This document shows positions 5,373 to 60,068 of a stretch of 64,000 bases of DNA, in pieces. Under the pieces are notes generated by a model that was not told the DNA's origin, did not search any database, and saw only the letters and a list, made by a program, of their open reading frames with translations. This DNA is from Sphaerolaimus hirsutus (taxonomy: Eukaryota; Nematoda; Chromadorea; Monhysterida; Sphaerolaimidae). Every line of letters begins with the position of its first letter. Within the stretch, counting starts at the first letter, position 1. A program made the position numbers and the translations under genes. Location: positions 19,295,832 through 19,359,831 of the forward strand of contig OZ038458.1 of assembly GCA_964036195.1 (NCBI GenBank). The letters are read 5' to 3'.

Positions 5373-5593
5373 GCTACGTTTTTAGGTTTTAAGGAAGAGT
5401 GCAATTAATCACAATCAATCACCGGCACTGCAGTGGACTCTCGAAGCCCACTAGTGTACCAGCGAATTTACAACCGCACTCACACACACACGAACACACA
5501 GTCACACACACTTGGGATCACAAGTTTATCAAACTTACGTGATGGGGGAATTATTCGAATTACGGGAACACAATTAATTAATTTATTCAGTGG
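5373..5593 (-). other. Spacer between integrase stop and helicase start
   Basis: The 221 bases include a CA-rich microsatellite (near 5476-5510). The integrase frame ends with TAG at 5594-5596. No conserved frame joins the two genes, so the helicase probably needs its own mRNA or internal initiation. Confidence 0.5.
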
Positions 5594-8399: not shown

Positions 8400-8577
8400 G
8401 CAAAACCAAATTTAATCGCCTGTAATCAATGACCATGCGTTTAGAACCATCAGGTTTAGAAACGACTAATGTGGGAGCGCAATATGGGCTTGTACTTGTT
8501 TCAATTATGTCGTGTTCAATTAGACAGCGCAGGTGCTTTTCTAAGTACTGTTGGTCATCCAGGCTCAACCGATACAT
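8329..8577 (-). pseudogene. Element A reverse transcriptase, fingers region (after element B)
   Basis: Encodes the RT fingers: YRLSLDDQQYLEKHL, then CAPTLVVSKPDGSKRMVIDYRR, a standard gypsy RT block. The frame continues upstream past the ATG at 8577 to the edge of the element B insertion at 8620 and picks up on the other side of element B in the protease frame (13934 onward). It is lost at the A-run near 8335, where homology shifts to the 8399 frame. Confidence 0.85.
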
Positions 8578-8831: not shown

Positions 8832-9064
8832 TGCCTTCAGACTGCACTACCTTCAGCCTCAGCTGACTCCCTACTGGGCTGTCATTCTGTTGACTGAGTA
8901 GTCTGTCTGCTAGACAGCTGTAATTGAGCCATCACTGGCTGACTAAAAGTGAGAGCCTTAATTGGCCGACTATTTTGTGCACAAAGTGTACAATTGGCAG
9001 CTCCATGAGAGCAAGCCGACTATTGTGGACCACTTTATGGTGTGTATCACTGGCATCCATTGAG

Positions 9065-13734: not shown

Positions 13735-13929
13735 AGTTAGCAGTGACTTCTAGTGATAAAAATGATCCTAGGCATAAAGCATTGAATCAACAAAAAGTTC
13801 ATCTAGTGATATGTGTGTGATCCTCTTTCCCATTTCATTGTTTAAATAGTTGATAGCTGAGCCCCACAAGGCATCAGCCAGCACCCGAGCAGCCAATGAA
13901 CCAGCAACCAACAACCAGCTTCGCCAACT
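13735..13929 (+). repeat. Element B 3' LTR
   Basis: Second copy of the 195-base LTR with no difference seen from the first. It is followed directly by the ATAA target duplication and then by element A protease/RT sequence. Confidence 0.95.
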
Positions 13930-13933
13930 ATAA

Positions 13934-18700: not shown

Positions 18701-20154
18701 GACGATCCTGGGGAGGAGGGACCCGGCTGTCCCGCCAAATTGATTACACTGGTAGCTGGTTGAGCCGTAGCGTTTGCAGGCGCAGGCGCCGCTCCACTGC
18801 CGCCCTCTGATCCGCTTACACTCGCCGGCGGGGGCACAGTCTGCGCGGTTATGTTCCCAGGGGCCGTTCCCGCGCCTAAGGTAGCATTAGCTGCCGATGC
18901 AATGGGTGGAATTAATCCCCTGTTAGAACAAAACGCCAAAAATTGAGTGGTGGCCTGCTCCAGCGTGCTGGGGTTACCTACGCTGGTGTACATACTCAAG
19001 CCTAGCCTAATGGCCTGTAGCTTATTTTTATCTGCTGTGGAAGCATTAACTGAAATCGCCGCTGGTCCCGCGCGAGTAAGTTCCCCAGACCACTGGTGCA
19101 ATAGTTGTATCATGCCCGGGAAGGTCCAACCTTCTCTAGTGTACCCAGTGGTTTCCCTGCCCGGGTCCGCCACAGTCGCCGCCGTCAAGATCTGGCCCGG
19201 CGTCACTTGGTTGGCCGCCGCCGCCGGGGTAGTCGTCACCGTGGTGAGCGTGCCCGGCGTGGTCGTCACACTCGAACCTGGGGGCGGGGTGCTAGTCATT
19301 CTACTTTGATTTATGGGAGACGGTCCTACGATTCTACGCCGTGCTCTATTCGAAGAGACACAGCTTTCAATCGAGCCTTGCGCGGACGCAAGCTCACGTG
19401 GTGTGGAAGAACTTCGCGGGGCACTTAATTGAAGCTCCCCCAATGAATTTTCCGCCTCTTCGAGCTCTTCGGCTAACGAGGGAAATTCAATATTTATATC
19501 TGGGATCGCTACTGGGGTATCAATTAGATTTACGGAAGTCTCACCACTTCTACGCTGGTATGCAGACGAACTCACGGGCTCGTCTTCACCAGCGTACCCT
19601 GCTGAATCAGCCTGTGATCCAGACCCTGTCGACACCGGGGAGCTACGGCCGCTTTTTCCCCACGGTCGTCGAAATAAACCCCACTTACTTGATTTCCGCT
19701 GCTCTCGCCCGGGCTCGGCACTTACTGGCCTGTCGGGTCGCAGGAGCGGACTATCTGGTGGGCGTTCTGTTTCTGTGCCTCCACTGGACGCTCGTCGAGC
19801 CGCCCCAGTCGGTAGCGCACCTGGCGCGCAAGCCGGCGTATCCCAACGGCTGCCGCCTGTTCCTGCACGTGCAATTCCAAATTGCAGCACTGGCCGGACA
19901 ACGGGAGTGCTATCCTCTGTGCGTCTGGTCCAAGTCGCTGCTTCCTGTGCGCGCTCGGCTTCCGCTTCCGCTTCCTGCGCACCTGCTTCAACTCTTACCT
20001 GTTCAACCTCAGCGTCCTGCGCGTCCGCAGTCTGCTGTGCCCTGCGCAAAGCCGCCTCTTGGCGCGTGCGCTTCTGTAGCTGTTCTGCAGCTCTCCACAC
20101 TTCCTCAACTGACCCTGGGATCGACGCTGGCCCTCCTGACCGCAGCGTTTCCAC
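15733..20154 (-). CDS. Element A Gag fused to env-like glycoprotein ectodomain
   Basis: An open frame of about 1473 codons. The codon at 20154 is GTG and the first ATG is about residue 286, so the start is uncertain (non-AUG start, splicing, or start at 286). The N-terminus is rich in Ala, Glu and Arg. A gypsy-type capsid spans about residues 520-720 (DWRRKWDILCDALG onward). A CCHC zinc knuckle (CWECGSPDHFRYQC, 770-783) and an RG-rich RNA-binding stretch follow. From about 1076 there is a signal-peptide-like hydrophobic segment (ALFTVFTIAAVMACLSLMPL), then a Cys-rich segment with N-glycosylation sites (NCT, NVS) and a furin-type REKR at 1364-1367. TGA at 15733-15735 ends the frame inside the glycoprotein region, which continues in the next frame. 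I do not recognise the glycoprotein family. Confidence 0.85.
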   Translation of the reverse strand: METLRSGGPASIPGSVEEVWRAAEQLQKRTRQEAALRRAQQTADAQDAEVEQVRVEAGAQEAEAEAERAQEAATWTRRTEDSTPVVRPVLQFGIARAGTGGSRWDTPACAPGALPTGAARRASSGGTETERPPDSPLLRPDRPVSAEPGREQRKSSKWGLFRRPWGKSGRSSPVSTGSGSQADSAGYAGEDEPVSSSAYQRRSGETSVNLIDTPVAIPDINIEFPSLAEELEEAENSLGELQLSAPRSSSTPRELASAQGSIESCVSSNRARRRIVGPSPINQSRMTSTPPPGSSVTTTPGTLTTVTTTPAAAANQVTPGQILTAATVADPGRETTGYTREGWTFPGMIQLLHQWSGELTRAGPAAISVNASTADKNKLQAIRLGLSMYTSVGNPSTLEQATTQFLAFCSNRGLIPPIASAANATLGAGTAPGNITAQTVPPPASVSGSEGGSGAAPAPANATAQPATSVINLAGQPGPSSPGSSGSISPAPNPTDPDYLAQHQVPHGTAATLTALATQCDAFTGRADKSFKDWRRKWDILCDALGVSMRSRQKLLPIFLQKNANSIFVARRRELRALDYKAMMDRLEELFANPNAQHHAQREFIESTQSPTESVLDWATRLERVVKRAYPMLHFAQREGMCITKFHQGLDKDIRHNLAVHANISWKELVDNAHMQESYKNLETVQKEHAKSASEIVAETSNQVMELIMAMNLHPSVQSMEAESAENAKLKAKERALDERQKKLDAQEAKMMGAPRPRRELPPKRFENGCWECGSPDHFRYQCPNKPPPEPSAGNDSNQRGRGGDFRARGRGGGRGRGRGQGGQYPQNFGYPGGWVPMQLSQPMTVPSSQMLQPVYVQSQQPAAIGWHPQPQPAQRPLESQQGQSSSVPLLNPTTVTQVGECTYKAVTESSPSYARILFHHDQLLTLQGLEPEAPEEEEEMEEQPVASLQCKMHALMVDREQWISHWAYQREATSILFRTSWLDYLRRTAMHDLKDEDCVVLPDCCPHDDHNDTLTRIEWRVLRDAPLDPFLNEPPMILSPRTFSSTCVDKMAEFRDKTSAVPRQRAYSEPPYNNQVFGALFTVFTIAAVMACLSLMPLAAASTMPDTPLLCSDLTDHYDLYTYPDLPNCTALVDSAVSLTKPVPLKLTIYKRNMVEYRATAYRCVAATRSAHTYQNFWGDVTLEHFDSQPRAVDPLECESMMKYHKCNDGALQPVDELSNAWDTQHPTNVSYSGHGLYCCSWLITKTPQCGLFKGDVRMRYGAKVMQSTLGEVSKCNYEEGTCTLPDGSQLVWKPNPKAECPYEKWQEIAGLIRQDIWLARDHTLALSFRAKEEIISCGKKLWKSDQDIVVAPFEIPPIRYVREKRRAARPGFGVVDTGHLAAAMQAVYETSEQTMRAQAVSTCRHVQHFQELLRLAMTEHPTTTARWYMCDNEILAKAAPDGFLVHKCFAVKTYQLGTETGKGACHATVPI

Positions 20155-21431
20155 CCGGCGCGACAGATCGTTTGTTACTTATCACTTAACGGCTTGGCGT
20201 TGATCAGGCGCCGCACCGTTCACTGAAGTGAATTAAGCAAACCACTCGCGTCTGCTACCAAGTTGTCATGAATCCGTGTATTCAGCTGTTTTTCGACTAC
20301 ACGATTCACGAGGTTTTTTACCGCACTTTTCCCTCTATTCCCACTTCACCGGCCGCTTGCCGCTGCAGTGCACTGCGCTGGGCCCGGAGGTCCAGGTTAT
20401 AAATGTGTGTTGTAAATTTTAAGGAAACGTGTCCGAAGACGGTAGGTTTTTCAGAACGTGCGATGAACCACTCGGTGGCTCACGCTGTTCCGTTTCCCGC
20501 AGCACGCACAGCACTTACACTCAGCATAAGCAGCGCGGCAATTAGAGCAGTTGTTAATTAGCTAACTAAGGGAAAACAGTTAGTACTTAGTGCTAATACA
20601 AAAAAAGGGGGTCCGAGTTGGGTTGAGAAGAGAGTTTATTTTTAGGGCAATGGAAGAACAGTAGCGGCAGAGTAGAAGCAAAATCAGTTTTCGTCGCATC
20701 GACAAAGTTGGGGGGAAAAAACAATTTCAGCTACTTATAAGGTAATCAAGGCTACCATAATCGACGTGAATAAAAAGCTTAAAAAAACATAAAACGGCAA
20801 GGTTACAAAATCACTTCCAAATCACATAAGCTCTGATGTAAGCACTTAGTAAAATCGTATGTAACACAGCTGCTTATGAAAAGAGTACTAATTAATATCA
20901 GCTAACAACGGTAATTAAAAGCTTCATGCGACATGGGGCTTAATCTATAATTTACAAGTTTACTTGGGGCGGCAATTATTTACTTCCATAATTACCTACA
21001 AATCCCTACTTAATCTAGTGCGATAAAAAAAAGATAACAATGCAGTGCAATGCATATTCATCAAAAATGGAACGAACAACGTATGTACAAAGGCAATCAC
21101 GACATCAAAATCTAATACAGCAATTTAAGCTAACAAGTAATTAGACAGCTAATACAAGCTTACAACTAATGTTAATTAATTAAGATACAAAACGATTAAT
21201 TAAGCTTGTGGAAATGAAAGGCATTGGCGGGAAACGATATGTACAACAATTTCTACATGTCACATGGAAACTTTGTTTGGGGGTTTTGTATTCATAAGTT
21301 ACGGTAGCTAGAAAGTGCTCGCGGGCGCGAAATGCTTATCACCTCCAACCCCGCGACCCACTATTGTGACTATCCGGTCAGCTAGCGCCCGTGAGAAAGG
21401 TTTCAGCCCGATGGCCACACCCTTCCGAGCG
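20155..21431 (-). other. Element A leader and inner part of the upstream LTR
   Basis: Non-coding, AT-rich in its outer half. It must hold the inner LTR border and primer binding site, but the matching left LTR portion is outside the window, so I cannot place the border. I looked for a tRNA-3'-end-like sequence ending in CCA next to TG and found none convincing. A run AAAAAAAGGGGG lies near 20601-20612. Confidence 0.4.
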
Positions 21432-23376: not shown

Positions 23377-26300
23377 TCAATCAATCTTTTTCACATCATC
23401 CTCAACCCACGCCCTGCCATCCAATCCACAAACTTTTACCAAAATCGACGCGGCCAGTGAAGCAAGGGAAGCTGCGGTAAAAAGCCACCTGCCAGGGGTC
23501 ATTGCCAGCGGCCACCAATAGAGCCAGACGAAAAACAAACTGAGCACATTTCGGATTAGCTCGAATTTGCTCAGCCAGGTGCTGATGGGGGAGTGGGGTT
23601 GAAGGGTGAAGGATATTGTAGAGGTATGATATTTGTGGTGTGGACAAGGATCCTGTATGGCCCTGCAAGTAAACTTGCTCTGCAAATAGTAGCAGCCTGC
23701 AAGTAATCACGACCGCAATACAAGTGTGCCCTAGGGTAGTGATGGAATAAACGCCATAACTTTGGCGCCAAGCGCCAAAAGCGCCATGGCGCTTTTTGGA
23801 ACCCCAGCGCCAAGAGCCAATGGCGCCAGTGCAAAATGGCGCCAAGCGCCAGAAGCGCCACGGCGCTTGTTCCTTTGGCGCTAGCGACACGCTTTAGCGC
23901 CATGATGCGTTTCCCTCACTACTTAAGGGTGTCAAAAAGTTTTTACGGAAAACGGAAAGGTAAACATTTTTCACTTAGCGGAAAACGGAAAATGAAAAGG
24001 TAAAAAAATTTCTGCCTTGAAAACGGAAAACATAAAGGTAACAAATTCAAATTTTCACTTGACGGAAAACGGAAAAGTAAAAAACTTTTTAGCTGCCGGA
24101 AAACAGAAAGTGAAAAGGTAAAGAAACTGCATACCTACTTGAAAAGCGAGCACACTTGCAATAAAGCGGTTGTAATTACTTGCAGACCACCACTACTGGC
24201 ACAACAAGCATGGCACCGCCATATGCAATCACATGTAAATAGATTGGGAACCTGGATTGGATATGAAATGGTATAGGAGGTTTGGCCATTTTTTAATTAG
24301 GGTAGAAGGTAGTGTTAAGGGCATTGCCGTCGCAGCATGCAGCCCCTAATAGTGACGAGTCCAGCCGCCTCTGTAGTCTAGTGGTTAGGGCACTCGTGTT
24401 CTATACGAGAGGTGCGGGTTCGATTCCCGTCTGAGGCAATTTTGCACTCTTTCTGTAGAAGCAATCAGTTTAAATCTGATAAACTTGATAGGTATCATCT
24501 TTTTATCTGTATTCATACTAAATTTAAAGCATATAAGCTCACCGGTTATCGAAAACGGCGCTCACAGTTTGAAAACTGGCCACTGAATGCGCTATGAACG
24601 CCCAGAATAACAGCCGGTCTCCATCAGTTTTATCCTTTAAAATTTCGTCATATTTAAATGAACGCTGTAAAAGCCAATAAGCATATACCGTATTACCTCG
24701 AAATAACCCCATGGGGGTTTATTATTTCGCCAGCAAAATTTGAGGGGGGGTTAATTCGGGGGGGTTTATTATTTCGTCAGAACTTTTCGTAAGGATCGTA
24801 GTAAATAGTAGGCACTTGCATACCCAAAACAGGTAATAAATGTGTCCAAACAGGATATATTTGGACATAAAAACGTAGATAGCTACACAAACTACACGCA
24901 ATGCAAATTAACAGTAATATACACCATGTACATTGCATACATGACGTATTTATTAAACTCGGCAGACATGAAAGGAATCAGTGATTCGGCCCTTACGTAC
25001 CAATTTTAAATTTCGTTAAAATTGTTAAGTTAATTTTGAATTTGAATGAATGCATTAGAATCGATTCATGGTAATTCTTATTCAATCCGACGTTTTATGC
25101 GAGAACAGGATAAACTGGACACGCATATTGTCATATGAAAGCAGATAACAAGGTATTTAGTTGTAACAGCCCGGACAAATTCCAACAAAAAAGTACGTAT
25201 GTGTGCGTGCGATAGAACAAGGGAAGAACGACCCTGTACACTGTACACCACTAGCGAAATCTGGATCCTTTTGAAAATCTAAAAATTGCTCTGAATAACA
25301 TAAAATGCTCACTATGTCCGAAATAATAAGAAATTATCGTATATTTATCAAGTGTAGATCTTAAATTCAAATTTCGACGGTGACGTTCACTTATCTAATT
25401 GAAAAATTTGTTGATGGTCATCCCTACGCATGAAATATGAGTGTCAATAACAATAAAATTGGGTTAGAATGGCACTTGTACAAAAATTCGTTAGACCATT
25501 GACTCGCATAATGTCTGCCGAGTTTATGTACATGACGTACATCATTCCGAAGGGGGGGTATTTCGAGGGGGGGTTATTATTTCCCCAGCCCATTTTGAGG
25601 GGGGGTTAATTCGAGGGGGGGTTAATTCAAGGGGGGATAATTCGAGGTAATACGGTGGTAATAATTTTTTTCTGGCAAACCAGGAAAATGGGCAAGGCGG
25701 CCGCATAAATGATGGTCGATGAGAAAAATGTCCACGCGGCAAAAACGTGGGCCCATGATGCCATTTTCGGATCGTACGGAACTACCTTGGCAGCTTCGAT
25801 CTGAAAAATGGTTTTCACCGACTTAGAAAATGAAATATGGCAAGCAAATTTCACATGCATAGGTAGTTATATACCTTTGGAATACCCTCTTCAGTGTCAG
25901 CGAGCCTGTACCACCAGAGGAAAGGCTTGAGCTTGGGCTCGGCGCCCTGGGGGCTGCACTGGGCGGGCAGCCAGGCGGGCGGCAGCAGCGGCGCCTTGAG
26001 CGTGTCCAGCCACGTCGGCATGGCCGCCGGCTTGCGGCACGCAAAGGTCACCAGAGGGCAGTCCCAGACCATGTAAAGTGTTGAGTAAAGTGTCAAATGT
26101 CATGCAAAAAGTCAATAAAAACAAAAAAGAACAGATTTTATTACTGAACTTGACTTTTGACACTTTAATTTACACTTTAAAGAGTCTGGGATTGGCACCA
26201 GGTGGTCGTGCTGCAGGTACAGCTGATCGAACGTCCGCTCGGGGGTGACCGAGGGTCAATTCCGCAAGTGGAGAAGTAAAAAAAACGATTTTGCAGTTGG

Positions 26301-29300
26301 AAGTAAAAAGTTAAATGAAAAATAAGTTTTAAGTAAAACGACTAAAACTTTTTACTTTTCACTTCAATATTGGTTCTTTTAAACACTTTTGCACTTGCGG
26401 AACTGGCACCAGGCCGTAGGCGATGGGCTCGTCGGCGCGCTCCTCGGCGTAGGTGCCCAGGAGGCGGTCCCAGATGATGAACGTGCCCGCGTAGTTCTTG
26501 TCGATGCAGTACGCGTTGCGGCCGTGGTGCACCCGGTGTGCAGACGGAGTGTTCAGCACCCACTCCAGCGGACCCAGGTGCGGAATGAGCTGAATGCACC
26601 GGGATATATTCACAGCGATGAAAAGTTTACCAGAATTTGGACGTTGTCAAATTTGATGGCACAAAACAAAGTGACATTTCTATGCCGCTTCACAAAATCG
26701 AATGTTCCACGGTTTTTGGAAGAAATAGTAGTAGAATACCTACTCATTTATACCCACCACTCATCTATTTCTACCCGATACTCGTGTATACTCACTACTC
26801 ATCTATACCCACTACCCATCTATCCCCACTACTCATCTGTACCCACTACTCATCTATACCGACCATTCATGTATACCCTTCACTCACCTTTTTCTACTCG
26901 ATACCCATCTATACCCACTACTCATCTATACCCACCACACATTTATACCCACTACTCATCTAAACCCACCACTCATCTATTTCTAATCTATACTCATCTA
27001 CACCCACTACTCATCTAAACCCACTACTCATCTATTTATACCCTATATTCATCTACACCCATTACTCATCTATACCCACCACTCATCTATACTCACCACT
27101 CATCTATTTCTACCAGATACACATCTATACCCACTTCTCATCTATACCCTTATTTGGGAGGGGGTGTAGATGAGAATCAGGACCCACAGTATATATACAA
27201 TCTGCCTTATTTACACCTACCATGCAGGCAGGCAGGCAAACACAATGATTCACCAGCATGGTGACACCTGGAAACAAGCTTTTGACAAGGCATTCTTTCA
27301 ATGTTGTTTCTAAATGTCATAATGTTGTTTCCTTGGATGGGTTTCACATGCCTCACTATCTACATGCATCAAGATGCTTTAGAACAATTTGTCCCCACAC
27401 TTCACATTGTGTCACCACGATGTTTATGAATTGTGGGAAGTTGTGCTCCAACATTGTTTCATATTATGGGCTATGTGTCCCAATGTTGTTTTGCAGGTGT
27501 GCTATCACCCACAGTGATAGTGTTACTGTTAGCACATCTGCAAATGACTGTGGAGCTGATACCATCATCTTTGTAATTCAACCTGACAAAACAAATGAGA
27601 GCAGCATGTGTCTGCATGCGGTATACATGAGTATTGGGTAGAAATAGATTATTAGTGGGTAGAAATAGATAACTAGTGGGTCTCGATAAGTAGCGAATCT
27701 AGATGAGTAGTGGATCTCTAGATGTGTAGCTGGTGAAAACAGATGAGTGACGGGTCTAGATGAGTAGTGGGTTTCTAGATTACTACCAGGACATGGTTGC
27801 CTGTAACAACCACACAAACCTCAGTGTGCAGCCAAAACTGGTTGATGAGTGCGAGCGCCTTGTGCGTGAGCACGACTTGAGGCGGGGCGAACAGGGCCAG
27901 GAAGGGGTCGAAGAGCAGCGTGGCCAGGTCCTGCAGGTACGACTGCCGCAGCGCCGTCGACAGGTTGTAGTACTCGCTGCTGTGGTGCATCTGGTGGAAG
28001 GCCCACAGGATCCCTACTTCTGTTTGTGGGGTAGGGAGTCAGTTGGAAGTCGGTTTAGAATCTGTGGACAGATGCCAAAAATGTCAACTTATGAACAGCA
28101 TACGGTGACTGGTGAATAAATGTCTACAAGGAGACGCCATTTCAGTTGTAGGTAATTATAAATTATAGGCTTGCGGAGAAATTATATACGACTCTTTAGG
28201 TGATTTTATTTAACTATTTACCTTGTCGTTAGTTATAAAGATTCATGAACATTCAAGTGCATGCCATACAATACCCAATTCATTTTACCATCACACCCCT
28301 AGTAAAACCGACCATGGCTGGCACGGTGCCAAAGGTAGTAGGTGAAATCACAGCCAAGGAAGCCAATCAGCCAGGTGTAGGGTGAGTCCCAGGGAAGGTC
28401 CACCAGCCGGTAGTGTTCGTGCACGTAGCTGAATGTCGTCACGTAAATCATGGGACGCATCTGTCTGTGTATTTTTTGAACACGGCATATTTTAAAAAAG
28501 TGGTTTTTGGCTAATACTGCGAACAAATGGGCATTTTCGTTTTTGAAAAACAAATCAAACATGATTGAATAGAGCACCAGGGGCCAGTCCGCAAGTGGTA
28601 AAGTAAAAATAAAAACGATTCGCCTCACTTTTCACGTGACTCTTTACTCTACTCTTTACTTTTTACTACACTCTTTAATTCTCCACTTGTGGAACCAGCA
28701 CCAGGGAGCAGTCCAAAAGTGCCAACTGTGTATCCAAATCTTACTATCAAACGTAAGATTTGGGTACAAAAACATAAGATTTGGATACACAGTTGACACT
28801 TTGGGGCTGCCCCCCCTCGTGCTCGTTCCACAAGTGGAAAATTAAAGAGTAAAGTAAAAAGTAAAGAGTAAAGAGTAAAGTGAAGAGTGAAGCGCAAAGT
28901 TTTTCTTTTTACTTTACGACTTGCGGAACTAGCCCCAGCACCGCACCAAAAAGTGCAGAGGCTCCCTCCCAGTGCCAATTTCACCTGCAGAGCATGCTAA
29001 ACCTGCCGCCGTTGATCGAGGTGACCGTGTCCGGCCCCGACCAGCCCCGACCGGTGTATTTGCCATTGATCTTGCGACCCAACTCCAGAATAATGATTTC
29101 GGCCACAATCAGAGCCACGAACCAGTTGCTTGACTGTAAACGGGGGGGGGGGGGGGTGAAGGACAACTAAGGTTCCACTGATATTCAACTGTTTCTTGGA
29201 GGAATGAAGGTCGACGTGTTGGCAATTTCTAATGCTTTGTGTACACCTGTACGTCGTCAGAAAACAGCGATAAAAATCTCCCGAGGTTTTTGAAACGCTA

Positions 29301-30885
29301 GTTGCAAATGGCGAATCCAGGGTGCACTCCCAGATCCTGTAAAAAACCCTGTAAATTTTCAAATGTCATGTAATAGACCGTGTAAAGTGTAATGTGTATC
29401 CAAATCTCATTTTTATCGTATCCAAATCTTATGCTTTTGTATCCCAATCTTATGTCAAAAAGGGTCTTTTACAATGGTATATGACATTTTACATTTTAAA
29501 ATGGTATATGACATTTTACAGGATCTTTTATATGACACGTGCCATTTTACAGGGTCTTTTACACTTTAGAGGGTCTTTTACAGGGTTTGTGAGTGGCACC
29601 ATAAGCGACTCATTAATGACGGAGCACGCTTTGCGCAGAATGTAGCCACACAAGCTAGTTTTCAAGGTTCCATTTTGAAAACTCGTCCAAAAACTGAATG
29701 GCGACGCGGACGCTGATTGACGCTTCCACCATTTTGTAACTGACCGCTTAGACCCAGCACACTAGTATGCAAATTATTAGTTTACAGAAATGATCAGTCT
29801 ATGAACTAGTGTTGAAGGAGATCGACAAGATTTCGATCGAGTTTTCAAATTGAAATTGTGAAAACTAGCTTTTGTTGCGCAAATGTCACCATATTTTGAA
29901 TAAACTCATCTGAAAAATTTTATACTGTAAATGATTTATGTTCCATAAAAGCGGAAATTATTGCGAGAAGCAAATATTATTTATATTGTTTATCATTCCT
30001 ATATTGAGGGTTTAGTGATGGTATGGCGCCATTGCCCCCCCCCCCCGGTGCCTGGCGCCTTTGTTTCAAATGGCGCCATGGTGCCATGTTCACTGGCATA
30101 GTAGATTTACTTTTTACGTTTTACTTTTACAGTAGATTACAAAGCAAAATGTACAGTCGGTTGACCAAATAAGAATTCATTTCTATCAGAAACCACGAAC
30201 CTCGTAATAATAATTGGGCACATCTTTCACCGAGGCAAAACTCGTTTCAGCCGGCGTAACCAGGGACAAAATTTAATAAGCCCCACACATTAAAATGGAA
30301 GCCCGAGCCCGATTAATCCCATTTGAAATTCACATTCAAAGTGGCTCAAATTGATTATCGGAAACATGTGAATAGGTCAGAGTCAGGGTTGGTTTTAGTA
30401 AAATTCTTTTTACTAAAATTGTATTTTATTTTTATTAAAATTGTATTTTATTTTTATTTTATTCTTCAATTTTCCATTTTATTTTTATTTTATTCTTCAA
30501 TTTTTCATTTTATTTTTATTTTATTTTTATTTTTTATTTGAGTTTGTGACCAGGATTCATTTAAGTAAAATTCTTTTTACTAAAATTGTATTTTATTTTT
30601 ATTAAAATTGTATTTTATTTTAATTTTATTCTTCAATTTTACATTTTATTTTTATTTTATTCTTTAATTTTCTATTTTATTTTTATTTTATTTTTATTTT
30701 TTTCTGAGATTTTGCCAACCCTGGTCAGAGTATTTCAAATATCAGATAGAAGGAATCGGGTTTCCCGAAAAACGCGTATGACTGATTAAACTTTGCACCA
30801 GATAAAGCAAGTGTCTCAGATGCCATAGGCTAAGCTTTTTCGCAAAAGGTTCACCAAAAACTTCCGCTGAAACGTTTGAGGACAT
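23377..30885 (-). CDS. AGMO: Alkylglycerol monooxygenase, copy 1
   Basis: A spliced gene of 490 codons in eleven exon pieces: 30885-30799, 30260-30201, 29133-28985, 28464-28313, 28019-27820, 26589-26410, 26249-26199, 26051-25875, 25800-25681, 24634-24543, 23581-23377. The product is an ER multi-span membrane enzyme of the fatty-acid-hydroxylase family; AGMO cleaves the ether bond of alkylglycerols using tetrahydrobiopterin and a di-iron centre. The His boxes are HRASHE, HQMHHSS and HRVHHGRN, and NLSTALRQS is conserved. Seven introns are GT...AG. Three gaps are transposon insertions: 30798-30261 and 26198-26052 leave the frame intact only if cut as GT...TG, and 26409-26250 is shared with copy 2. 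Exon lengths match copy 2 exactly where comparable (51+177=228; 200; 180; 120). All frames are open, so it may be functional if those insertions are spliced. Confidence 0.88.
23737..23921. mobile_element. Degenerate GGCGCC-rich hAT-like MITE
   Basis: TAGTGATGG...CTCACTA ends around repeated GGCGCC/AGCGCCATGGCGCT palindromes. Flanks CCCTAGGG and CTTAAGGG are a weak 8-bp duplication. It lies in the last intron of AGMO copy 1. Confidence 0.6.
24367..24438 (+). tRNA. tRNA-Arg (TCT), predicted
   Basis: A 72-base cloverleaf. The acceptor stem is GCCTCTG with CTGAGGC (one T-T mismatch at the sixth pair). The D arm includes AGTGGTTAGG. The anticodon stem is CTCGT/ACGAG with a 7-base loop GTTCTAT, giving anticodon TCT after U33. 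The T arm is GCGGG-TTCGATT-CCCGT and the discriminator base is A. A TTTT Pol III terminator follows within a few bases. It lies in the last intron of AGMO copy 1, on the opposite strand. The acceptor mismatch leaves open a tRNA-derived copy. Confidence 0.8.
24688..25655. mobile_element. CCGTATTACC-type MITE, large copy
   Basis: Ends CCGTATTACCTCGAA... and ...TTCGAGGTAATACGG in inverted orientation, with TA on the left side and TG on the right. Subterminal poly-G/poly-C blocks (TTTATTATTTCGCCAG, TTCGAGGGGGG) repeat in inverted copies. It is inserted in the AGMO copy 1 intron, 25 bases past the exon 7 splice donor. Confidence 0.75.
26055..26198 (-). mobile_element. Introner family 1, splitting exon 6 of AGMO copy 1
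   Basis: A 144-base element with inverted ends (sense GTGCCAATCCCAGACTC... and ...GGTCTGGGACTGCCCT). It is flanked by the 3-bp duplication CAG (plus strand, 26052-26054 and 26199-26201; CTG in sense). Exon pieces on either side add up to exactly the 228 bases of the uninterrupted exon 6 of copy 2. The resulting intron would be 26198-26052, GT...TG, with no AG at the required position. Confidence 0.85.
26253..26409 (-). mobile_element. Introner family 2, AGMO copy 1 exon 5/6 junction
   Basis: Inverted ends in sense CCAGTTCCGCAAGTG and CACTTGCGGAATTGACC. The equivalent element sits at the same codon boundary in copy 2, so it predates the duplication. Removing GTGCCAG...CCCTCG restores an ungapped match to human AGMO length. 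A canonical alternative exists (CAA|GTGCAA to CCCGAG|CGG) that stays in frame and adds one net residue. Confidence 0.75.
26735..27160. repeat. Minisatellite ACTCATCTATACCC
   Basis: About 25-30 imperfect units of 14-18 bases (ACTCATCTATACCCACC and variants) in intron 4 of AGMO copy 1. An inverted, shorter array of the same motif lies at 27632-27780, so the pair may be the arms of one transposon whose centre is 27161-27631. Confidence 0.8.
27632..27780. repeat. Inverted array of the same minisatellite
   Basis: Units GTGGGTAGAAATAGAT and GGGTCTAGATGAGTAGT are reverse complements of the 26.7-27.2 kb array. They lie just before the exon 4 donor of AGMO copy 1. Confidence 0.7.
28581..28701. mobile_element. 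Introner-type element, family 2, in AGMO copy 1 intron 2
   Basis: Inverted ends GGGCCAGTCCGCAAGTGG and CCACTTGTGGAACCAGCAC, with a CAG duplication on both sides (28578-28580 and 28702-28704). The interior is GTAAAG/CTTTAC repeats. Two more palindromic elements follow at about 28705-28806 (ends GCAGTCCAAAAGTGCC, interior TGTATCCAAATCTTA) and 28810-28940 (TTCCACAAGTGG...CTTGCGGAA), so intron 2 consists mostly of such elements. Confidence 0.7.
29321..29597. mobile_element. Introner family 1 copy in AGMO copy 1 intron 1
   Basis: Ends GGTGCACTCCCAGATCCTG and CAGGGTTTGTGAGTGGCAC in inverted orientation, flanked by CAG (left) and CAT (right). It holds a TGTATCCAAATCTTA stretch seen also at 28.7 and 39.4 kb. 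It sits inside an existing intron and has no coding effect. Confidence 0.65.
30264..30798 (-). mobile_element. Introner-type element splitting exon 1 of AGMO copy 1
   Basis: Flanked by CAG duplications (30261-30263 and 30799-30801). Inverted ends are GTGCAAAGTTTAATCAG and (reverse) GGACAAAATTTAATAAG. It separates codons for LRHLLYL and VTPAETSF, which are contiguous in copy 2. Without the 340-base hAT-like element nested at 30384-30723 it would be about 187 bases, like the other introners. As an intron it would be GT...TG. Confidence 0.75.
30384..30723. mobile_element. hAT-like MITE CAGGGTTGG...CCAACCCTG
   Basis: A perfect 8-bp duplication GTCAGAGT (30376-30383 and 30724-30731) and 9-bp inverted ends. 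The interior is almost only TTTTATTTTTATT and TAAAATT runs, with an internal half-duplication near 30550. It is nested in the exon 1 introner. Confidence 0.85.
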
Positions 30886-45729: not shown

Positions 45730-46082
45730 AAAGTACCCTATTCCTGGGACTGGAGTATTCAAATAAATCCCACAAAAAGCTTTGTACTAAAATGGTGCAA
45801 AAAAGCGGATATAATCAGGAAATGGCGCCTGGGTTTGCACGCAAGAATGTGCCGACATTTATTACAGAAACAGACAAAATCAAATATTTAGGTGTGTGGT
45901 TTACAAGCTGTAAAGATACATTTGCGGCGCGTAGAGACAAAACGATGGACAAAGTGAAAAGTTTACAAGGGATGATTGTGCGCTGCAGCAGGAAAAGCCA
46001 CAGACCCTTATGGTACGCGAACCACATATGGAAAACATATATGCTGAAAGTGCGATTTTATACGGGTTAGATGTGGTAGGGA
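45730..46082 (+). pseudogene. LINE (non-LTR) reverse transcriptase fragment, 5' part
   Basis: Encodes the RT thumb side: a segment including DKIKYLGVWFTSCKD (the KYLG motif of LINE RTs) and ARRDKTMDKVKSLQGMI. A frameshift near 46030 moves homology to the frame reading ESAILYGLDVVG, which reaches the insertion at 46083. It is 5'-truncated, as is usual for LINE copies. Confidence 0.75.
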
Positions 46083-47305
46083 TAGTGATGTAAAAAGCGT
46101 CAGACTTTTGGCGCCAAGCGCCAAAAGCGCCATGGCGCTTTTCCGGAACTAGCGCCAAGCGCCAATGGCGCCACAGCAAAATGGCGCCAAGCGCCAAAAG
46201 CGCCATGGCGCTTTTCTGGACCTTAGCGCCAAGCGCCAAAGGCGCCAGGGGACATGGCGCCAAGCGCCAATGGCGCCAGCGCCAAAATGATATTGCCTTT
46301 AATGATACAGGTGAGACAAAGTACTATTTTCTTCACTTTCAATAACTTGTATTGCCTCCAAAAACACAAAAATGGTCAAATAATGGAAATCCATAAGTTT
46401 TCTTGCTCAACATCCAACTGTAACTACCGTATTACCTCGAATTATCCCCCCTTGAATTGACCCCCCCCATCGAATTAACCCCCCCCCCTCAATATGGGCT
46501 GGAAAAATAATAACCCCCCCTCGAAATACCCCCCCTCCGGAATGATGTACATCATGTATGCAATGTACATGATGTATTTACGACTACTAATTTGCATTGC
46601 AGCTGCACTGATACACTCATTTGTGTACAGTTATACATCTTTAACCCCAATAAAACCTATTTTCTCACATTTATTACGTTTTTGTGTATGAAAAACCGTA
46701 TTCTTTACTATGAATTTCACAAAAATTTCTGACGAAATAAAAACGCCACCCCTCGAATTAACCCCCCCCACCTAAAATTTTGCTGGCGAAAAAATAAACC
46801 CCCATGGGGGTATTTCGAGGTAATACGGTAAGACTGGTCCAAATAGATAGCAAATTGCCCCTCTGAAGTGGTGGAAGCTGAAAGATTGTCTGGTGGTTGG
46901 GGGTTGCAGAGTTTCGATCTATTAGATATTTCAAGATTTAAAGTGCAAACTGTGAGATAACAGGGTAAAAATAGCTAAATTACATATCTGAGTAAAATAC
47001 CTATGTAAAATAATTAAATACATGGCCAAAAATTGCTGAAAATGGGAATAAGGCACATGAACACCGCGGCGCAATTATCACTCCCTGGCACTTTTTTGGC
47101 GCTTTAAAAAATGGTAGCGCCAAGCGCCAATGGCGCCACTGGAAACTAGCGCCAAGCGCCAAAAGCGCCATGGCGCTTTTCGGAAACACAGCGCCAAGCG
47201 CCAATGGCGCCGCAGCATTTTAGTGCCAAGCGCCAAAAGCGCCATGGCGCTTTTTGCTTTGGCGCTAGCGCCAGGCGCCAGCGCCATGGCGCTTTCACAT
47301 CACTA
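46083..47305. mobile_element. GGCGCC-rich hAT-like element inside a LINE
   Basis: A perfect 8-bp duplication GGTAGGGA (46075-46082, 47306-47313) and ends TAGTGATGTAAAAAGCG and AGCGCTTTCACATCACTA type. Both arms are AGCGCCATGGCGCT palindromes and the middle holds a CCGTATTACC MITE (46427-46828). Confidence 0.85.
46427..46828. mobile_element. CCGTATTACC-type MITE nested in hAT-like element
   Basis: TA duplications (46425-46426, 46829-46830) and full inverted ends; the same subfamily as 43134-43531. Confidence 0.85.
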
Positions 47306-48142
47306 GGTAGGGATGCGCCAAAAACATGTTGATTTCATGGATCGAATCTATCTGCAAACTATGAAAATGGCCAGTAGGCTGCCAAAAACGTGTTGCAACG
47401 ACGCTTTGTGGCAAGAATTAGGTGGCATGCGACCGTCCGATAGGCTACAACGGCACACAATGAATTACGACAGGTACTTGAATACGACTTCTAAAATTCT
47501 ACTTTCTTCAGCATATGCATATATATGCAAAAATACAGACGCGAAGAGTACAAAAACACGACAAATGGGGGGTTCGATTTATGGTCGGGTACTTCAATTC
47601 GTGAAAAATTTCCGTCTGACGGCTTCTATGAGTCGGTCCATGTCAAAAGCCAACCTGAAACAGAGTACAGCCCGAGTGTGCAATAGAAACAGTGATGCTA
47701 CATTATTGCAGCACTCGAGTCAAAAGTTGCGTTTTGATACGGCAACAGGAGATAGGCTCGATTTAAGAACGCTATCTGGCAAATACTGGCTATGGTTACA
47801 GGCGCGCTACAATTGTCTGCAATACCCGAAAAACGAGATGCTTTACTGCAACGCATGCAGCACAAAGGGGGTTAGAATACCACTAACCCTGTCACACATT
47901 TTTGGTGACGCATGCGGGCAGGCTGCGTCAAAAAAACGGCTGAGTGATTTGAAATGACGGGAAACTGTGACTGCGAATCTATAAAATCGGATGCGAGCGG
48001 CCAGCTTCTGATAAAATGGCTAATATCATCTAAAAGATGGCAATCGCATAGAGCGAAGGTGCATGAACACATAAAAAAATTGTTTAGACAGATGCTCCAT
48101 CGTGCAACATTGGCGGGCAATGTTCTCCACAACATTGGATGA
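47306..48142 (+). pseudogene. LINE fragment, 3' part with CCHC-type end
   Basis: Resumes the LINE reading frame after the hAT-like insertion (MDRIYLQTMKMASRLP...). Near the end it has CNACSTKGVRIPLTLSHIFG followed by DAC, a C-x2-C...H...C cluster typical of LINE C-termini. The frame stops near 47957 and related residues continue one frame over to 48142. Possible LINE 3' UTR continues to about 48330. Confidence 0.75.
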
Positions 48143-51264: not shown

Positions 51265-54200
51265 TCACTCATCCTTCCCTCGTCTCAACCTTTGTTCTCT
51301 ATCCTCCTTCACCCAATCCCGTGTCCACTGTTTTCCATTCAACCCCTTAGCAATCACAACGCAACAAATGCACACGGATGCAAACGAGGCGCAGAGAAAC
51401 AGCCAGCGGCCGGGCGTCATGATGCCGAGCAGCATGAAGTAGACGCAGAAAAACAGGGCGCCCAAGTGCCGCGACAATTCGCCGTAGATGAACCACGATC
51501 TGAGATGGGGGATTGTTTGAGGTGATTGAGCGATAGCCAATCTGTTTTCGATAGAGTCGGCTGGAATTTTTTAAAGGAAAAGGTGGTTAATTTTAAAATG
51601 AATGTTAAAACATAAAAGTAAAGGTTTTAAAGTAAAGTGATAAACATAGACATCAAAAGTTCAAAATTACAGCAAATATCAGGCCTTCATGAGTGAATGC
51701 CGCCAGTGAGGTTTTACCTGTATTTTTATTTTTCGAGGAAATATGATAATTTTCATAGAATAAAAGCAATAGATCCACCTGTTATCAAGCAGTGCACCGA
51801 CTGTTTGCAAACCAAGCAGTTGATAAACCATATGCGACCAGAAAATCACACCACTGGCACCGGAACCCTGAAAACGGTGAACTTCACAGATTTTCATCAA
51901 ATGTGTGCAGTATAGTGATGTAAAAGCGCCATGGCGCTGGCGCCTGGCGCTAGCACCAACGGAAAAAGTGCCATGGCGCTATGGCGCTATTTTGCTCTGG
52001 CGCCATGCCCATGGAAAGCGCCATGGCGCTTTTGTCGTTTGGCGCCAGAGTCATGGCGCTTTTCACATCACTAGTGCAGTAGAATATACACCCGGAATAA
52101 CTACTCGGACTGAACGGTACGCACAAAGTGTTACCATATTTCGATGAATACAGTAATTTTTTGCGAAATTTTTTAAATGTTTTTTATTCAGACATACGGT
52201 GGATTACATTGTAAAAAGCATTGGAAATAGCAACCAAAAAAAACAGATAAAAATTATGCAATACTGTAGACCGTAGACGGTAGTGGCATAAGTTTAGCTC
52301 CGTTTGGAAATTGCAACTATGATGTCCCTTTGGACTTGTGGTTTAACTAAATATGATGGCCCTTTGGAAATTGCAAAAAAGTACCACCTACCTGGAAATT
52401 TGGCTGGCTTGTAATGTACACATTTAGAGAAAACAAATGCGACCACCAAGCCAAACACATTGCCCACTTCTCAAATTGTGGGTTATAAGGTTTCTCCTTG
52501 CTGCCGTCGATCTGTGTGTAAATGGAGAATGGAAGCAGTGCTATGAAAAATATCAAAATTAATATAAGTAGCGCTTTTTGGAGGAGCCAATGGCGCCAGC
52601 ACCACCAATCCTGGCACCTTTTTCGCACTATTTCTCGCAACCGAAAAAGTATCGCTCACATAAGGGATGCCGTGTTCAGTGTCAGCGAGCCTGTACCACC
52701 AGAGGAAGGTCTTTAGCTTGGGCTCGGTGACCTGGGGGCTGCACTGGGCGGGCAGCCAGCCGGGCGGCAGCAGCGGCGCCTTGAGCGCGTCCAGCCACGT
52801 CGGCATGGCCGCCGGCTTGCGGCACGCAAAGTGCACCAGGTGGTCGTGCTGCAGGTGCAGCTGGTCGAACGTCCGCTCCGGGGTCACCGGGGGGCAATTC
52901 CCCGAGTGGACAAGTAAAACACCGATTTTGCACTGACAAGTAAACAGTTAAAAGAAAAGTTAATTTATAAGTTAAAAGTTACCCCCTTGAATTACCCGCC
53001 TCGAAATACCCCTCATAATTTTCACTCTGACGAAATGAACCCCCGAGGATATACGGTACTTTTCTATAAACTTTTCACTTCACACTTCAAAATCGGTATT
53101 TTCAATACTTTCCACTTGCGGAAGTGGCACCAGGCCGTAGGCGATGGGCTCGTCGGGTCGCTCCTCGGCGTAGGTGCCCAGGAGGCGGTCCCAGATGATG
53201 AACGTGCCCGCGTAGTTCTTGTCGATGCAGTACGCGTTGCGGCCGTGGTGCACCCGGTGTGCAGACGGAGTGTTCAGCACCCACTCCAGCGGACCCAGGT
53301 GCGGAATGAGCTGAAAAGTTTTTTATAGTGGTTGCCAGGGACGTACGCAGGATTTTTTTATCAAACTCACCCATTTTTAATGCCAGCTGTGGTGCACACT
53401 TGCAGGGTGAGCGCACTTGAAGAGTTTCGTTCCAAAAGTGCATATCTCCACCAATTTTTCAAAATCGCATTTTAAAGTTTAGTGGTGACCCGACAACGCC
53501 ATGTTTGAGCCACAGAGATTGCCCCGAACTTTTCAGATACCTTAGACTATTGCCTACATTTTCTAAAGAATGATTTTTTTCGCCGTACAGTCTATGTGGA
53601 GTTATGTCCAGATTTGTCGGCCATTTTTTCAGGAACAAAATGGACAATCTACGATTAAAAGTAAAACTACTTATGAATGGTGCGACCCAGAAAAACAACA
53701 ACTGCACCATTGAATAGCCTGTCTCGAAAAATGGCCCGACCTAAATTTTAGACTTATAAATACGTACATCCGTATCCAAGTTTTAGCTCTGGACATGTTT
53801 GGAAATGCACAACGCACTTTTGGAATGAAACATTTTGTATGGCAGTTCTGACCGGCTCTTCAGGAGCACGGACTCACTTTTGGAATGAAACTTTTTTGGA
53901 GATACGCACTTTTGAAGTGGATTTTCGGTGGTCAGAGGGTGGAGAATCTCCAAAATCTCCACTGGAGATACGCACTTTCGATGTGAAAGTGCCATTTTTC
54001 TTGGTGGAGATACGCACTTTCGATGTGAAAATCATGCTTTTTTGAAAATCGGTACCAATGTATCTCCAGAATGACATGGACTATAACACTAATTTTATTG
54101 CTAAAATGTACAAACATATATGTGGATGTCTAATCCACGCTAAACTCGATTTTTGCGATTTTGGAGCTTACGCTTTTATGGAATGAAACTCTTCACTTGC

Positions 54201-56365
54201 CGGGCAGCCATAAACACATACTTGCAGGTTGTAACTACTTGCAGAGCGAGCTTACATGCAGAGAGAGTTCGGGCAGTCAAAAAACACAGACCTCAGTATG
54301 AATCCAATGTTGGTTAATAAGTGTGAGCGCCTTGTGTGTGAGCAGGACTTGGGGCGGGGCGAACAGTGCCAGAAAGGGGTCGAAGAGCAGCGTGGCCAGG
54401 TCCTGCAGGTACGACTGCCGCAGCGCCGTCGACAGGTTGTAGTACTCGCTGCTGTGGTGCATCTGGGGGCACTCCCAGACCCTTAAAAAGCCCAGTAAAA
54501 TTTAAAATGTCATGCAAAGTGTCAAAAGTCATGGAAAATGCCCTGACACTTTCCATGACTTTCCCTGGGCATTTTCCATGACTTTTGACACTTTGCGTGA
54601 CATTTGACATTTTACAGGGCTTTTACAGGGTCTGGGATTGGCACCTGGTGGAAGGCCCACAAGAATGATACCTCTGCGATTTTTACGAATAACTACTGAT
54701 GAATGTATTTATGTGGGTAGTCTTTTTATAGTGACGAAACTCTTCGACTGTATTCATTTGAAACCAAAATGGGTTACATTATTTTTAAAAAATTACGAAA
54801 ACAAGATGGCGTGCAATTTAGGTAACAAACCACCCGAACCAGACTTTACTACCCGAACCCCAACCTGATACCCGACACTAACACCCAAACCCACACTCAA
54901 TACCCATAAGAAATATTCCCGACAGTCCAATCTTTCATGCAGTTCAGGGGCACAAAAATGTTGAAATTCCCACCCCTACCGACCATGGCTGGCACGATGC
55001 CAAAGGTAGTAGGTGAAATCGCAGCCAAGGAAGCCGATCAGCCAGGTGAAGGGCGAGTCCCAGGGAAGGTCCACCAGCCGGTAGTGCTCGTGCACGTAGG
55101 TGAATGTGGAAACGAACACCATTGGGCGAAGCTGTCTGAGGTTCGGGGAAATCGTCATTAAACATATAAGTAAAAAAATAAAATGATACTTTACTGATAC
55201 ACCCATTCCTTTTAGTACACAGAAAACCGCAAACAAAACAAATCAATTGTAAAAAATTGTTTTGCTGTTCATCGAAATTTATCAAGATTTTTTCGAGTTA
55301 CCTAGTCAGGTACCGAAGTATCTCACGCACCCCGAAACGAACCTGTACCTACAGCTTACTGTGTACATTCTCAATAGCATAATTATGTGTCCACACACAC
55401 GAGTTTACCAATGTTCCACCATTTTACTAAACTGTTTCACAAAACAGTACGAAACACGGGTACAACTCTGTACATTGCTTTGTACTGTTTTGTGCAAACA
55501 GTTGACCAAAATGGTCGAACATTTCATAATGGTAAACTAGTGTGTGTGGACCCAATACTTCAAAACACATGCCCTGCTAAACCTACCTAGAAAGCAGTGA
55601 AAAGATGCCAGCATTCACATTGGTGATATTATCGGCGGCGGACCAGCCGCGCTCGCCCGGCTTCTCCCCGCGTTTGTAGCGCCGCGCCTCGAGCAGCACC
55701 ATCTCCAACAGGATCGACGCGATGAACCACGATGACGACTGGGCAAGGGGGGGATTACAATTTTGGCAGTTTGGAATATTTTTTTGAGCATTTTTAACTG
55801 TCACATTTTTGTCGTAACTAATTGTTATTGTCCGCCCTGTTAGAAGTGGGGGAAAAAATCTCCGTCGAATAATACCTATCTTGAGGCAAATGATAAGCTT
55901 GTTGGGTAACCATTTGAACGAAAAATTGCATGTTATGTTTCGTATAAAGCATATTTCATGAAATGAGTTGACACAAACATGCTTGAAAATTTTGAGGAAA
56001 TGATAATTCCCCCTGAACTATCCCCCCCCCCTCGAATGGTCCCCCAGTTTCCCGGGGGAATTATTCGAGTGAATATGGTAATTTCTGCGCAATTTGGCCG
56101 CATTTACTGCAAATAACTGTCTGTACATTACACATGGAACATATTGAAATCCCGCTATTATCGAAAGAAACAACCCACCCAAAACCCCCCAACCAACCTC
56201 ATTATAAAAATCTGGCACCTGATCTACACTCTCAAAAGTAGTCTCATTAGGCGTGACCAAGTATAGCAGGTGTCGCAGGTGAGACAAGCTCAAACGGCGC
56301 ACAATGTGCCCGCCATAGATCGAGTTCAGGACGGGCAGCACGCCGGACGTGATGTTGGACGCCAT
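51265..56365 (-). CDS. AGMO: Alkylglycerol monooxygenase, copy 2
   Basis: A spliced gene of 507 codons with exons 56365-56198, 55738-55587, 55135-54984, 54673-54645, 54462-54292, 53310-53131, 52887-52660, 52511-52392, 51867-51779, 51499-51265. The first codon is ATG (MASNITSG) and the stop is TGA. It is an ER membrane di-iron oxygenase using tetrahydrobiopterin to cleave alkylglycerol ethers. The three His boxes are HRASHE (from residue 153), HQMHH (166-170) and HRVHH (242-246). Exon 4 is split between Q167 and M168 by a 179-base transposon with perfect GT...AG borders; copy 1 has no intron there. The 53130-52888 intron is a shared introner with ambiguous borders; all other introns are GT...AG. 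Copies 1 and 2 are tandem, in the same orientation and clearly diverged. Confidence 0.9.
51913..52073. mobile_element. GGCGCC-rich hAT-like MITE, short perfect copy
   Basis: 161 bases with a perfect 8-bp duplication GTGCAGTA (51905-51912, 52074-52081). Almost the whole element is GCGCCATGGCGC palindromes between TAGTGATGTAAAAG and CTTTTCACATCACTA. It is in an AGMO copy 2 intron. Confidence 0.9.
52888..53130 (-). mobile_element. Introner family 2 at the AGMO copy 2 exon 5/6 junction
   Basis: Same site and ends as 26253-26409 in copy 1 (sense GTGCCACTTCCGCAAGTGG...). It is longer because of a CCGTATT-type fragment (about 52980-53057). Exact removal of GTGCCAC...CCCCCCG gives the ungapped protein but lacks an AG. 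A canonical in-frame alternative is CAA|GTGGAA to CCGGAG|CGG. Confidence 0.75.
53411..54197. mobile_element. Inverted-repeat element GAAGAGTTTCGTTCCA
   Basis: Ends GAAGAGTTTCGTTCCA and TGGAATGAAACTCTTC, flanked by ACTT on both sides. The interior has repeated GAGATACGCACTTTCGATGTG. It lies in an AGMO copy 2 intron. The superfamily is unclear. Confidence 0.65.
54466..54644 (-). mobile_element. Introner family 1, creating a GT...AG intron in exon 4 of AGMO copy 2
   Basis: A 179-base palindromic element (sense GTGCCAATCCCAGACCCTG... to ...GGGTCTGGGAGTGCCCC) with a 3-bp duplication CAG in sense (54645-54647 and 54463-54465). The 5' CAG ends the exon and the element supplies GT. The 3' CAG supplies the AG acceptor. 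Exon pieces of 29 and 171 bases sum to the uninterrupted 200-base exon of copy 1. Confidence 0.9.
55389..55552. repeat. Inverted-repeat element GTCCACACACACGAGTTTACC
   Basis: Ends GTCCACACACACGAGTTTAC and GTAAACTAGTGTGTGTGGAC in inverted orientation, in an AGMO copy 2 intron. Confidence 0.7.
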
Positions 56366-58600: not shown

Positions 58601-58817
58601 TAGTGACGTACAAATGCCAGGAGTTTGGCGCGAAGCGCCAGGAGCTTTTGTACTTACTGAGCGTCACTGCAAATTAGCGCCAACAGGCAAAAGCGTATTG
58701 GCGTTTCTAGTAATAAGTATGGCACTAAGCGCCAAGGGGACACACAAAACAGCGCCAAACGCCATTTGCTTTGGGGCTAGCGCCAGGCGCCAGCGCCATG
58801 GCGCTTTTACATCACTA
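58601..58817. mobile_element. GGCGCC-rich hAT-like MITE, decayed
   Basis: TAGTGACGTACAAATGCCAG to GCGCTTTTACATCACTA. Flanks CTACTGAT/CTTCAGAT agree at 6 of 8. Confidence 0.65.
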
Positions 58818-59161
58818 CTTCAGATCAGTATTAATTTTTAGCAGTTGTAATTATTGGTTTGAACGAGCCCACTGTAAACAAAAATGATGAAAACATTGAC
58901 AATGAGTAACGTATGCAAACAATTTTAACAGCAGAAACCAAAGTTGTGAAAACATTATTACGTTGATCCGGAATACACGGGTATTTCAAGTATTTATACC
59001 TGAAAATATCTAAAATAGGTAAAAAAATAGTTGTTACATTTTTCTGGCAAAATTACCCGGGTACAAAACACCAGAGAAAATCGTATGGAAAAAGTACATA
59101 AAACTGGACACTAGAATTTTTTTCCATTATTTTGGGTACAACATGCTTTTGCATACCTAAA
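58818..59161. other. Gene-free spacer
   Basis: AT-rich sequence with no supported feature. Confidence 0.4.
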
Positions 59162-59331
59162 TAGTGATGTAAAAGTGCCATGGCGCTGGCGCCTGGCGCT
59201 AGCGCCAAAGCAAAAAAACGCCATGGCGCTTGGCGCCATTTTGCTGTGGCGCCATTGGCGCGTGGCGCTAGGCGTCGGAAAAGCGCCATGGCGCTTTTGG
59301 CGCCAAAGCCGTGGCGCTTTTCATATCACTA
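59162..59331. mobile_element. GGCGCC-rich hAT-like MITE, short copy
   Basis: 170 bases. Flanks TACCTAAA/AACCTAAA match at 7 of 8; ends TAGTGATGTAAAAG and CTTTTCATATCACTA. Confidence 0.8.
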
Positions 59332-59902: not shown

Positions 59903-60068
59903 GTGCCAATCCCTGGCGCTGTAAAATGTCAAATGTCATGCAAAGTGTCAAAAGTCATGGAAAATGCCCTGCAAAATGAACAACTCGCTTGTCATTTTGC
60001 AGGGCATTTTCCATGACTTTCGACACTTTGCATGACATTTCACATTTTACAGGGTCTGGGAGTGCTCC
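59903..60068. mobile_element. Introner family 1 copy outside AGMO coding exons
   Basis: 166 bases with CTG on both sides (59900-59902, 60069-60071) and ends GTGCCAATCCC and GGGTCTGGGAGTGCTCC. On the minus strand the pre-insertion site reads GTGCAG|GTGAGT, a strong splice-donor consensus. That hints at an unannotated exon, perhaps a 5' exon of AGMO copy 2. Confidence 0.75.

Follow-up and report, generated by a model that had tools for sequence, protein, structure and literature searches.

Exon 4 of the second copy in a tandem pair of genes for the lipid enzyme AGMO is split by a 179-bp hairpin MITE that, judging from the DNA, very probably acts as an introner. We read it as a non-autonomous, CWG-duplicating, NuwaI-like element that would have inserted after the tandem duplication and that would supply the GT donor itself, with the duplicated CAG serving as acceptor. 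Introners are an established class of non-autonomous DNA elements that make introns when they insert into exons, and the part of the survey covered here places them in two animal groups only (Gozashti et al. 2022, PMC9860276). The window, meaning the whole stretch of 64,000 nucleotides that was analyzed, belongs to a 348-Mb genome in 762 contigs, all of which was scanned for relatives of the element.

A hairpin element with a duplicated CAG splits exon 4 of AGMO copy 2

The two AGMO genes lie in tandem on the minus strand, copy 1 at about 23.4–30.9 kb and copy 2 at about 51.3–56.4 kb of the window. In exon 4 of copy 2, the element occupies positions 54466–54644 (minus strand), has the ends GTGCCAATCCCAG...GGGAGTGCCCC, and is bordered on each side by CAG (CTG on the plus strand). 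One CAG, at 54645–54647, lies on the exon side directly 5' of the GT donor, and the other, at 54463–54465, lies on the acceptor side, where it would form the 3' splice site CAG|ATG. Read on the minus strand, the junctions are ...CTTCCACCAG|GTGCCAATCCCAGACCC...GGGTCTGGGAGTGCCCC|CAG|ATGCACCAC. The first exon piece is 29 nt long (54645–54673, with the codons VSFLWAFHQ at 54645–54671) and the second is 171 nt long (54292–54462, reading MHHSSEYYNL...), both on the minus strand. When the element and one CAG are taken out, WAFHQ|MHHSSEYY is left intact, and canonical GT...AG is present at the exact excision ends. An earlier note on this DNA had described a 179-base palindrome with a CAG duplication, an exon divided into 29 + 171 nt, and a cut between Q167 and M168; its coordinates, these lengths, and the place of the cut all match our own gene model.

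The element consists of a single long inverted repeat, whose 84-nt arms (54460–54543 and 54567–54650) are 87% complementary. Its predicted RNA folds into one hairpin of –113.9 kcal/mol (z = –15.1), a value equaled by 0 of 200 shuffled sequences. The usual donor is GTRAGT, and the GTGCCA of this element is far from it, which counts against the introner reading.

In copy 1, the codons of exon 4 run unbroken through the insertion site (27820–28017, minus strand), which thus represents the empty site, as the earlier note had stated. Its description of copy 1 as a clean "before" state holds for this exon and fails for the gene as a whole, whose exons 1 and 6 carry other insertions. A paralog pair alone gives no polarity, and the same comparison could be read as an intron lost from copy 1 instead of gained in copy 2. 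However, the inverted-repeat ends, the target duplication, and the very many sister copies elsewhere point to transposon insertion, and copy 1 has one target CAG where copy 2 has two; we consider loss highly improbable. In a tree of 49 AGMO sequences, including 47 of the 120 homologues listed, both copies adjoin nematodes and one metagenome protein, with modest support (85/61).

The element belongs to a large family that duplicates CWG

The exact left junction, CWG followed by GTGCCAATCCCAGA (CWGGTGCCAATCCCAGA), was found 1547 times genome-wide and the exact right junction, TCTGGGACTGCCCC followed by CAG, 1218 times, both counts including some repeats of one locus; the reversed controls gave 0 in each case. 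The 5' triplet of the 1547 left junctions is CAG in 704 and hence CTG in 843. The CAG duplication reported at copy 2 exon 4 is therefore real at that site but is not a rule of the family: insertion is at CWG, and CAG results in only about half of the cases.

A separate element search yielded 680 first-look candidates, 40 of which were scored. The sample studied comprises these 40 places and 98 of the 100 that head the list of 1547 (the latter all on contig C1), to which the window was added, besides these 138 loci. A right end carrying the same triplet was lacking in 47 of 95 exact-junction copies, and this led to a wider search; its 164 raw matches gave 120 complete copies once mirrored and overlapping detections were dropped, ends with more than 4 summed changes being left uncounted. 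The 5'..3' triplets of these copies are CAG..CAG in 43, CTG..CTG in 21, CTG..CAG in 18, CAG..CTG in 6, and other combinations in 32.

The family consensus, built from 114 copies, is a near-perfect hairpin of 189 bp, from which copies diverge by a median of 9.3% and a minimum of 3.0%, the element in copy 2 exon 4 lying 11% away. The left end starts with GT in 108 of 114 copies, a figure that is biased because most copies were picked by their left-end pattern, and the right end starts with GG in 84 of 114. Right ends starting with GT instead of GG were seen at L075 and L024. The target site is near-palindromic and weakly resembles ACCWGGT. At four loci (L002, L005, L054, and L076), paired insertions lie close together, apparently in one gene each.

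Copies called exonic are enriched and lie mostly in one orientation

Coding calls were made by scoring the joined flanks on both strands with a home-made codon-usage model (22 fragments, 3783 nt, some of them from the loci under study). For contig C1, the score called 32 of 74 sampled copies exonic, compared with 106 of 840 random CWG sites at the same loci (Fisher p = 8e-10). This enrichment by itself could have another cause in a preference for inserting into GC-rich DNA. The exonic copies are also strongly oriented: among kept copies outside the window, 42 have the GT end first and 5 are reversed, with 2 undecided (p = 2.5e-8), whereas control sites give 54:46. The 42 include both L034 and L058, which look like one duplicated locus, and leave out the element in exon 6 of AGMO copy 1, with which the ratio becomes 43:5. 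Because the target is near-palindromic, target preference does not account for this bias. The earlier note had named the lack of any genome-wide tie between the element and intron positions as a refutation of its reading, and in our sample such a tie is present. The class of non-coding calls still holds true exons, namely L030, L053, L131, and the second element of L054.

The five reverse calls were inspected singly. L075 lies in CTR9, with a PDB match of 2.5e-22 across the site, and has GT at the 5' end and CAG at the 3' end in the gene sense; its right end starts with GT, so that an antisense insertion receives a GT donor in the sense of the gene. The second element of L038 shows the same GT/CAG arrangement by codon score alone and had no Pfam match. 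L104 looks to be in the sense orientation by eye, likewise with no Pfam match, and L055 and L121 are undecided. L124, in an AAA gene (4.8e-10 across the site) and classed among the non-coding calls, is an antisense insertion that lacks GT at its exact end and so counts against the introner reading.

Homology supports the coding calls for about ten insertions. Matches run across the insertion site in genes for M14 carboxypeptidase, CHGN, AMPK gamma (4e-34), a class-B GPCR (9e-4), acetyl-CoA carboxylase (2.4e-22), guanylate cyclase, CTR9, and AAA, and cover one or both flanks in a cadherin (two insertions, L054) and an LRR gene. Removal of the element leaves the reading frame whole, for example, in M14 carboxypeptidase, acetyl-CoA carboxylase, CTR9, and guanylate cyclase. 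For many other joined-flank peptides, no Pfam match passed the cut-off, and a match of L026 to PF10379 (0.0029), below the cut-off, was taken as chance. AMPK gamma provides a second filled and empty pair: its exon carries an insert on C1 (L043, CTG/CTG) and is unbroken on C2 (L140, C2:25184455–25184679), the paralogous exons being 79% identical. As the paralogous exon there is unbroken, loss of the interrupted one could be buffered.

In AGMO, the transposon might simply break copy 2 while copy 1 covers its function: a paralog exists, and some members of the family are young, as little as 3% from the consensus; the element in copy 2 stands at 11%. However, exonic enrichment and a one-way orientation are unexpected for insertions that simply disrupt genes. 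Moreover, the two AGMO copies differ by a dN of 0.038–0.044 and a dS of 0.18–0.30 over 242 codons, which makes a long-dead copy unlikely. Simple breakage of copy 2 is thus, in our view, an unlikely account. Intron gain by an introner, as first put forward in the earlier note, is the best reading of the exonic enrichment, the orientation bias, and the frame-preserving insertions taken together. The insertion, its target duplication, the empty site in the paralog, the size of the family, and, in the sample, the enrichment and the orientation bias can be read from the sequence itself; the splicing step and movement by a NuwaI-type transposase are what we infer.

Exonic copies differ in their 3' triplet from non-coding copies

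As the target is CWG, only CAG can place an AG acceptor exactly at the end of the element. Among exonic sense calls, 6 of the 15 copies with a 5' CTG have CAG on the 3' side, and 0 of the 23 with a 5' CAG have CTG there (p = 0.0018; the test omits rows with another 3' triplet, 2 and 3, respectively, five in all). The corresponding figures for non-coding calls are 8 of 19 and 6 of 22 (p = 0.35), where L010, L040, L048, and L063, which represent one larger repeat, were collapsed by hand into one for the Fisher test (11 to 8). The CTG-to-CAG rate is thus no higher in exonic than in non-coding calls, and what distinguishes the exons is the missing CAG-to-CTG class (0 of 23 versus 6 of 22, p = 0.009), from which the 3' AG appears to be retained in exons. 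The mismatch occurs both ways in non-coding calls, so the flip alone is no proof of selection. Over all sampled copies, the excess of CAG at the 3' end is a trend only (60:48 at the 5' end, 58:26 at the 3' end, p = 0.07). Duplications differing by T or A (CTG versus CAG) were also common among non-coding calls, for example, at L012, L018, L036, L116, and L117.

One could imagine that the elements are removed from the DNA by a precise, programmed excision instead of from RNA by splicing. A perfect duplication around a hairpin fits such a process, which would also handle CTG copies. However, excision of DNA should be indifferent to orientation, yet the exonic copies are 42:5 GT-first, and it would not explain why a 5' CAG never accompanies a 3' CTG in them. 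We judge it most improbable and retain splicing as the likely route of removal.

Nine exonic copies, including the one in exon 6 of AGMO copy 1, have CTG on both sides and so lack GT...AG at their exact ends. They are no different in divergence from the consensus than CAG/CAG copies (median 7.4 versus 7.3%, p = 0.97), and they may be tolerated through TG splicing or by other routes. Two further loci, L103 and L131, had been counted in this class; a 3' CAG four bases earlier restores the frame in both and makes them CTG/CAG, as supported at L103 by a better Pfam score (placing the junction at the 3' CAG takes the guanylate cyclase match from 57.5 to 63.2 bits) and judged by eye at L131, which had no Pfam match. 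We had taken the CTG class as a clear sign of GT–TG splicing and dropped that view once the CTG/CAG copies emerged.

It is plausible, if somewhat short of probable, that CTG-flanked exonic copies are spliced not at TG but at a cryptic AG that lies 9 or 18 nt into the element or farther along the exon. An in-frame AG does lie 4–35 nt upstream in 4 of the 9 CTG/CTG copies, as in AMPK gamma, which has TTTTACAG 18 nt upstream. However, such an AG also occurs in 10 of 23 exonic CAG/CAG copies and in 7 of 11 non-coding CTG/CTG copies, and this absence of enrichment gives no hint of selection for a cryptic AG. The remaining 5 of 9, among them AGMO copy 1 exon 6, have no upstream in-frame AG, while downstream in-frame AGs exist. 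Alternatively, CTG insertions might also be spliced at CTG|, a proposal we hold only tentatively. One family would then have made many GT–TG introns beside GT–AG introns, perhaps aided by the hairpin; a later 3' T-to-A change would upgrade some of them to GT–AG, and intron 5 of AGMO would be an old example.

Comparison with known elements and proposed mechanism

The family resembles introners, as described in the covered part of the survey (PMC9860276), in its target duplications and/or inverted repeats, its insertion into exons, the 5' splice site that it would carry, and its enrichment in genes; some of the families described there bring a 5' site of their own and recruit the 3' site. Here too, many similar copies occupy independent sites, the positions in AGMO and AMPK gamma are unbroken in a homolog, and copies called exonic by the codon score mostly lie in the splice-competent orientation. 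Unlike the introners surveyed in that part, the present candidates reside in an animal of the nematode branch, duplicate CWG so that AG is supplied in about half of the cases, and form a near-perfect 189-bp hairpin. CWG duplications and animal hosts are shared with the NuwaI group of PHIS (PIF/Harbinger-like) transposons (Han et al. 2015, PMC4482050, covered in part), whose inverted repeats usually start with GGG. The right end of the present element, GGGGCA, resembles this start, whereas the left end begins with GTG and creates the donor; the part of PMC4482050 covered contains no mention of intron formation by NuwaI. In the literature covered in part, by title and the beginning of the abstract, neither a CWG-duplicating or NuwaI introner nor a nematode introner was found, and the covered portion of an article about introns in nematodes refers to introners in general terms only (PMC9169325).

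We propose that, once the AGMO genes had been duplicated in tandem, a NuwaI-type transposase would have mobilized the element and placed it by cut-and-paste at CCACCAG|ATG in copy 2. The GT at the left end of the element would become the 5' splice site and the CAG of the 3-bp target duplication would become the 3' one, both intron ends could be drawn together by the hairpin, and the spliceosome would remove the whole as a GT–AG intron, leaving codons 167|168 unchanged.

Introns outside GT/AG are known on a large scale in Fritillaria, where the covered text reports non-canonical introns with YAY triplets and AG/AC + AG/AT termini (Soo et al. 2026, PMC13326754). The present genome would share with it such introns in an animal, here with GT and either CAG or CTG. 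Precedent for a TG 3' end comes from the GT–TG introns of GNAS and other genes, single cases as far as the covered source goes (PMC4176328), whereas the sequences described here may represent a transposon-made class. The system bears on whether a newborn intron must already have AG or gains it by later mutation. It amounts to a natural experiment on intron birth in an animal, in which, for the same element in the same gene pair, an A or T in the target decides whether there is an AG acceptor.

Other insertions in the AGMO genes and the window

The two AGMO genes carry reciprocal insertions, one with CAG in exon 4 of copy 2 and one with CTG in exon 6 of copy 1, each site being empty in the other copy. 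The sister element in copy 1 exon 6 (26055–26198, minus strand) belongs to the same family, is 26% off the consensus, and has CTG on both flanks and GT...TG with no AG at the exact end; exon 6 of copy 2 (52660–52887, minus strand) is unbroken. In addition, a different element of 535 bp splits exon 1 of copy 1 (30264–30798, minus strand). It has CTG on both flanks, starts with GT, and carries the short terminal inverted repeats GTGCAAAGTTTAAT / GGACAAAATTTAAT; only copy 1 is split in this way, exon 1 of copy 2 (56198–56365, minus strand) being unbroken.

Related elements appear to make up intron 5 of both genes, at 52891–53130 in copy 2 (CTG|GTGCCACTTCC...|CCG) and at 26253–26409 in copy 1 (CTG|GTGCCAGTTCC...|TCG), both on the minus strand. 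Since the intron 5 element is common to the two copies, it would be older than the duplication. Its exact ends, CCG in copy 2 and TCG in copy 1, have no AG. Exact removal would give YGLVTPERTFDQL, with the same spacing as in the homologues that yielded the motif (88 of 120), and an alternative junction nearby, with donor CAA|GTG and acceptor GAG|CGG, would give one residue more. Several other AGMO introns appear to be GT–AG by eye.

A further family copy, at 59903–60068 on the plus strand, has CTG on both flanks and was not called coding. Elsewhere in the window, long open reading frames at 2514–8411, 8924–13624, and 13768–20178 appear retroelement-like by eye, one of them helicase-like, and a GC-rich repeat of the GGCGCCAGCGCCATGGCGC type is common to 23574–23915, 46077–46289, 47081–47334, 58765–58823, and 59158–59303.
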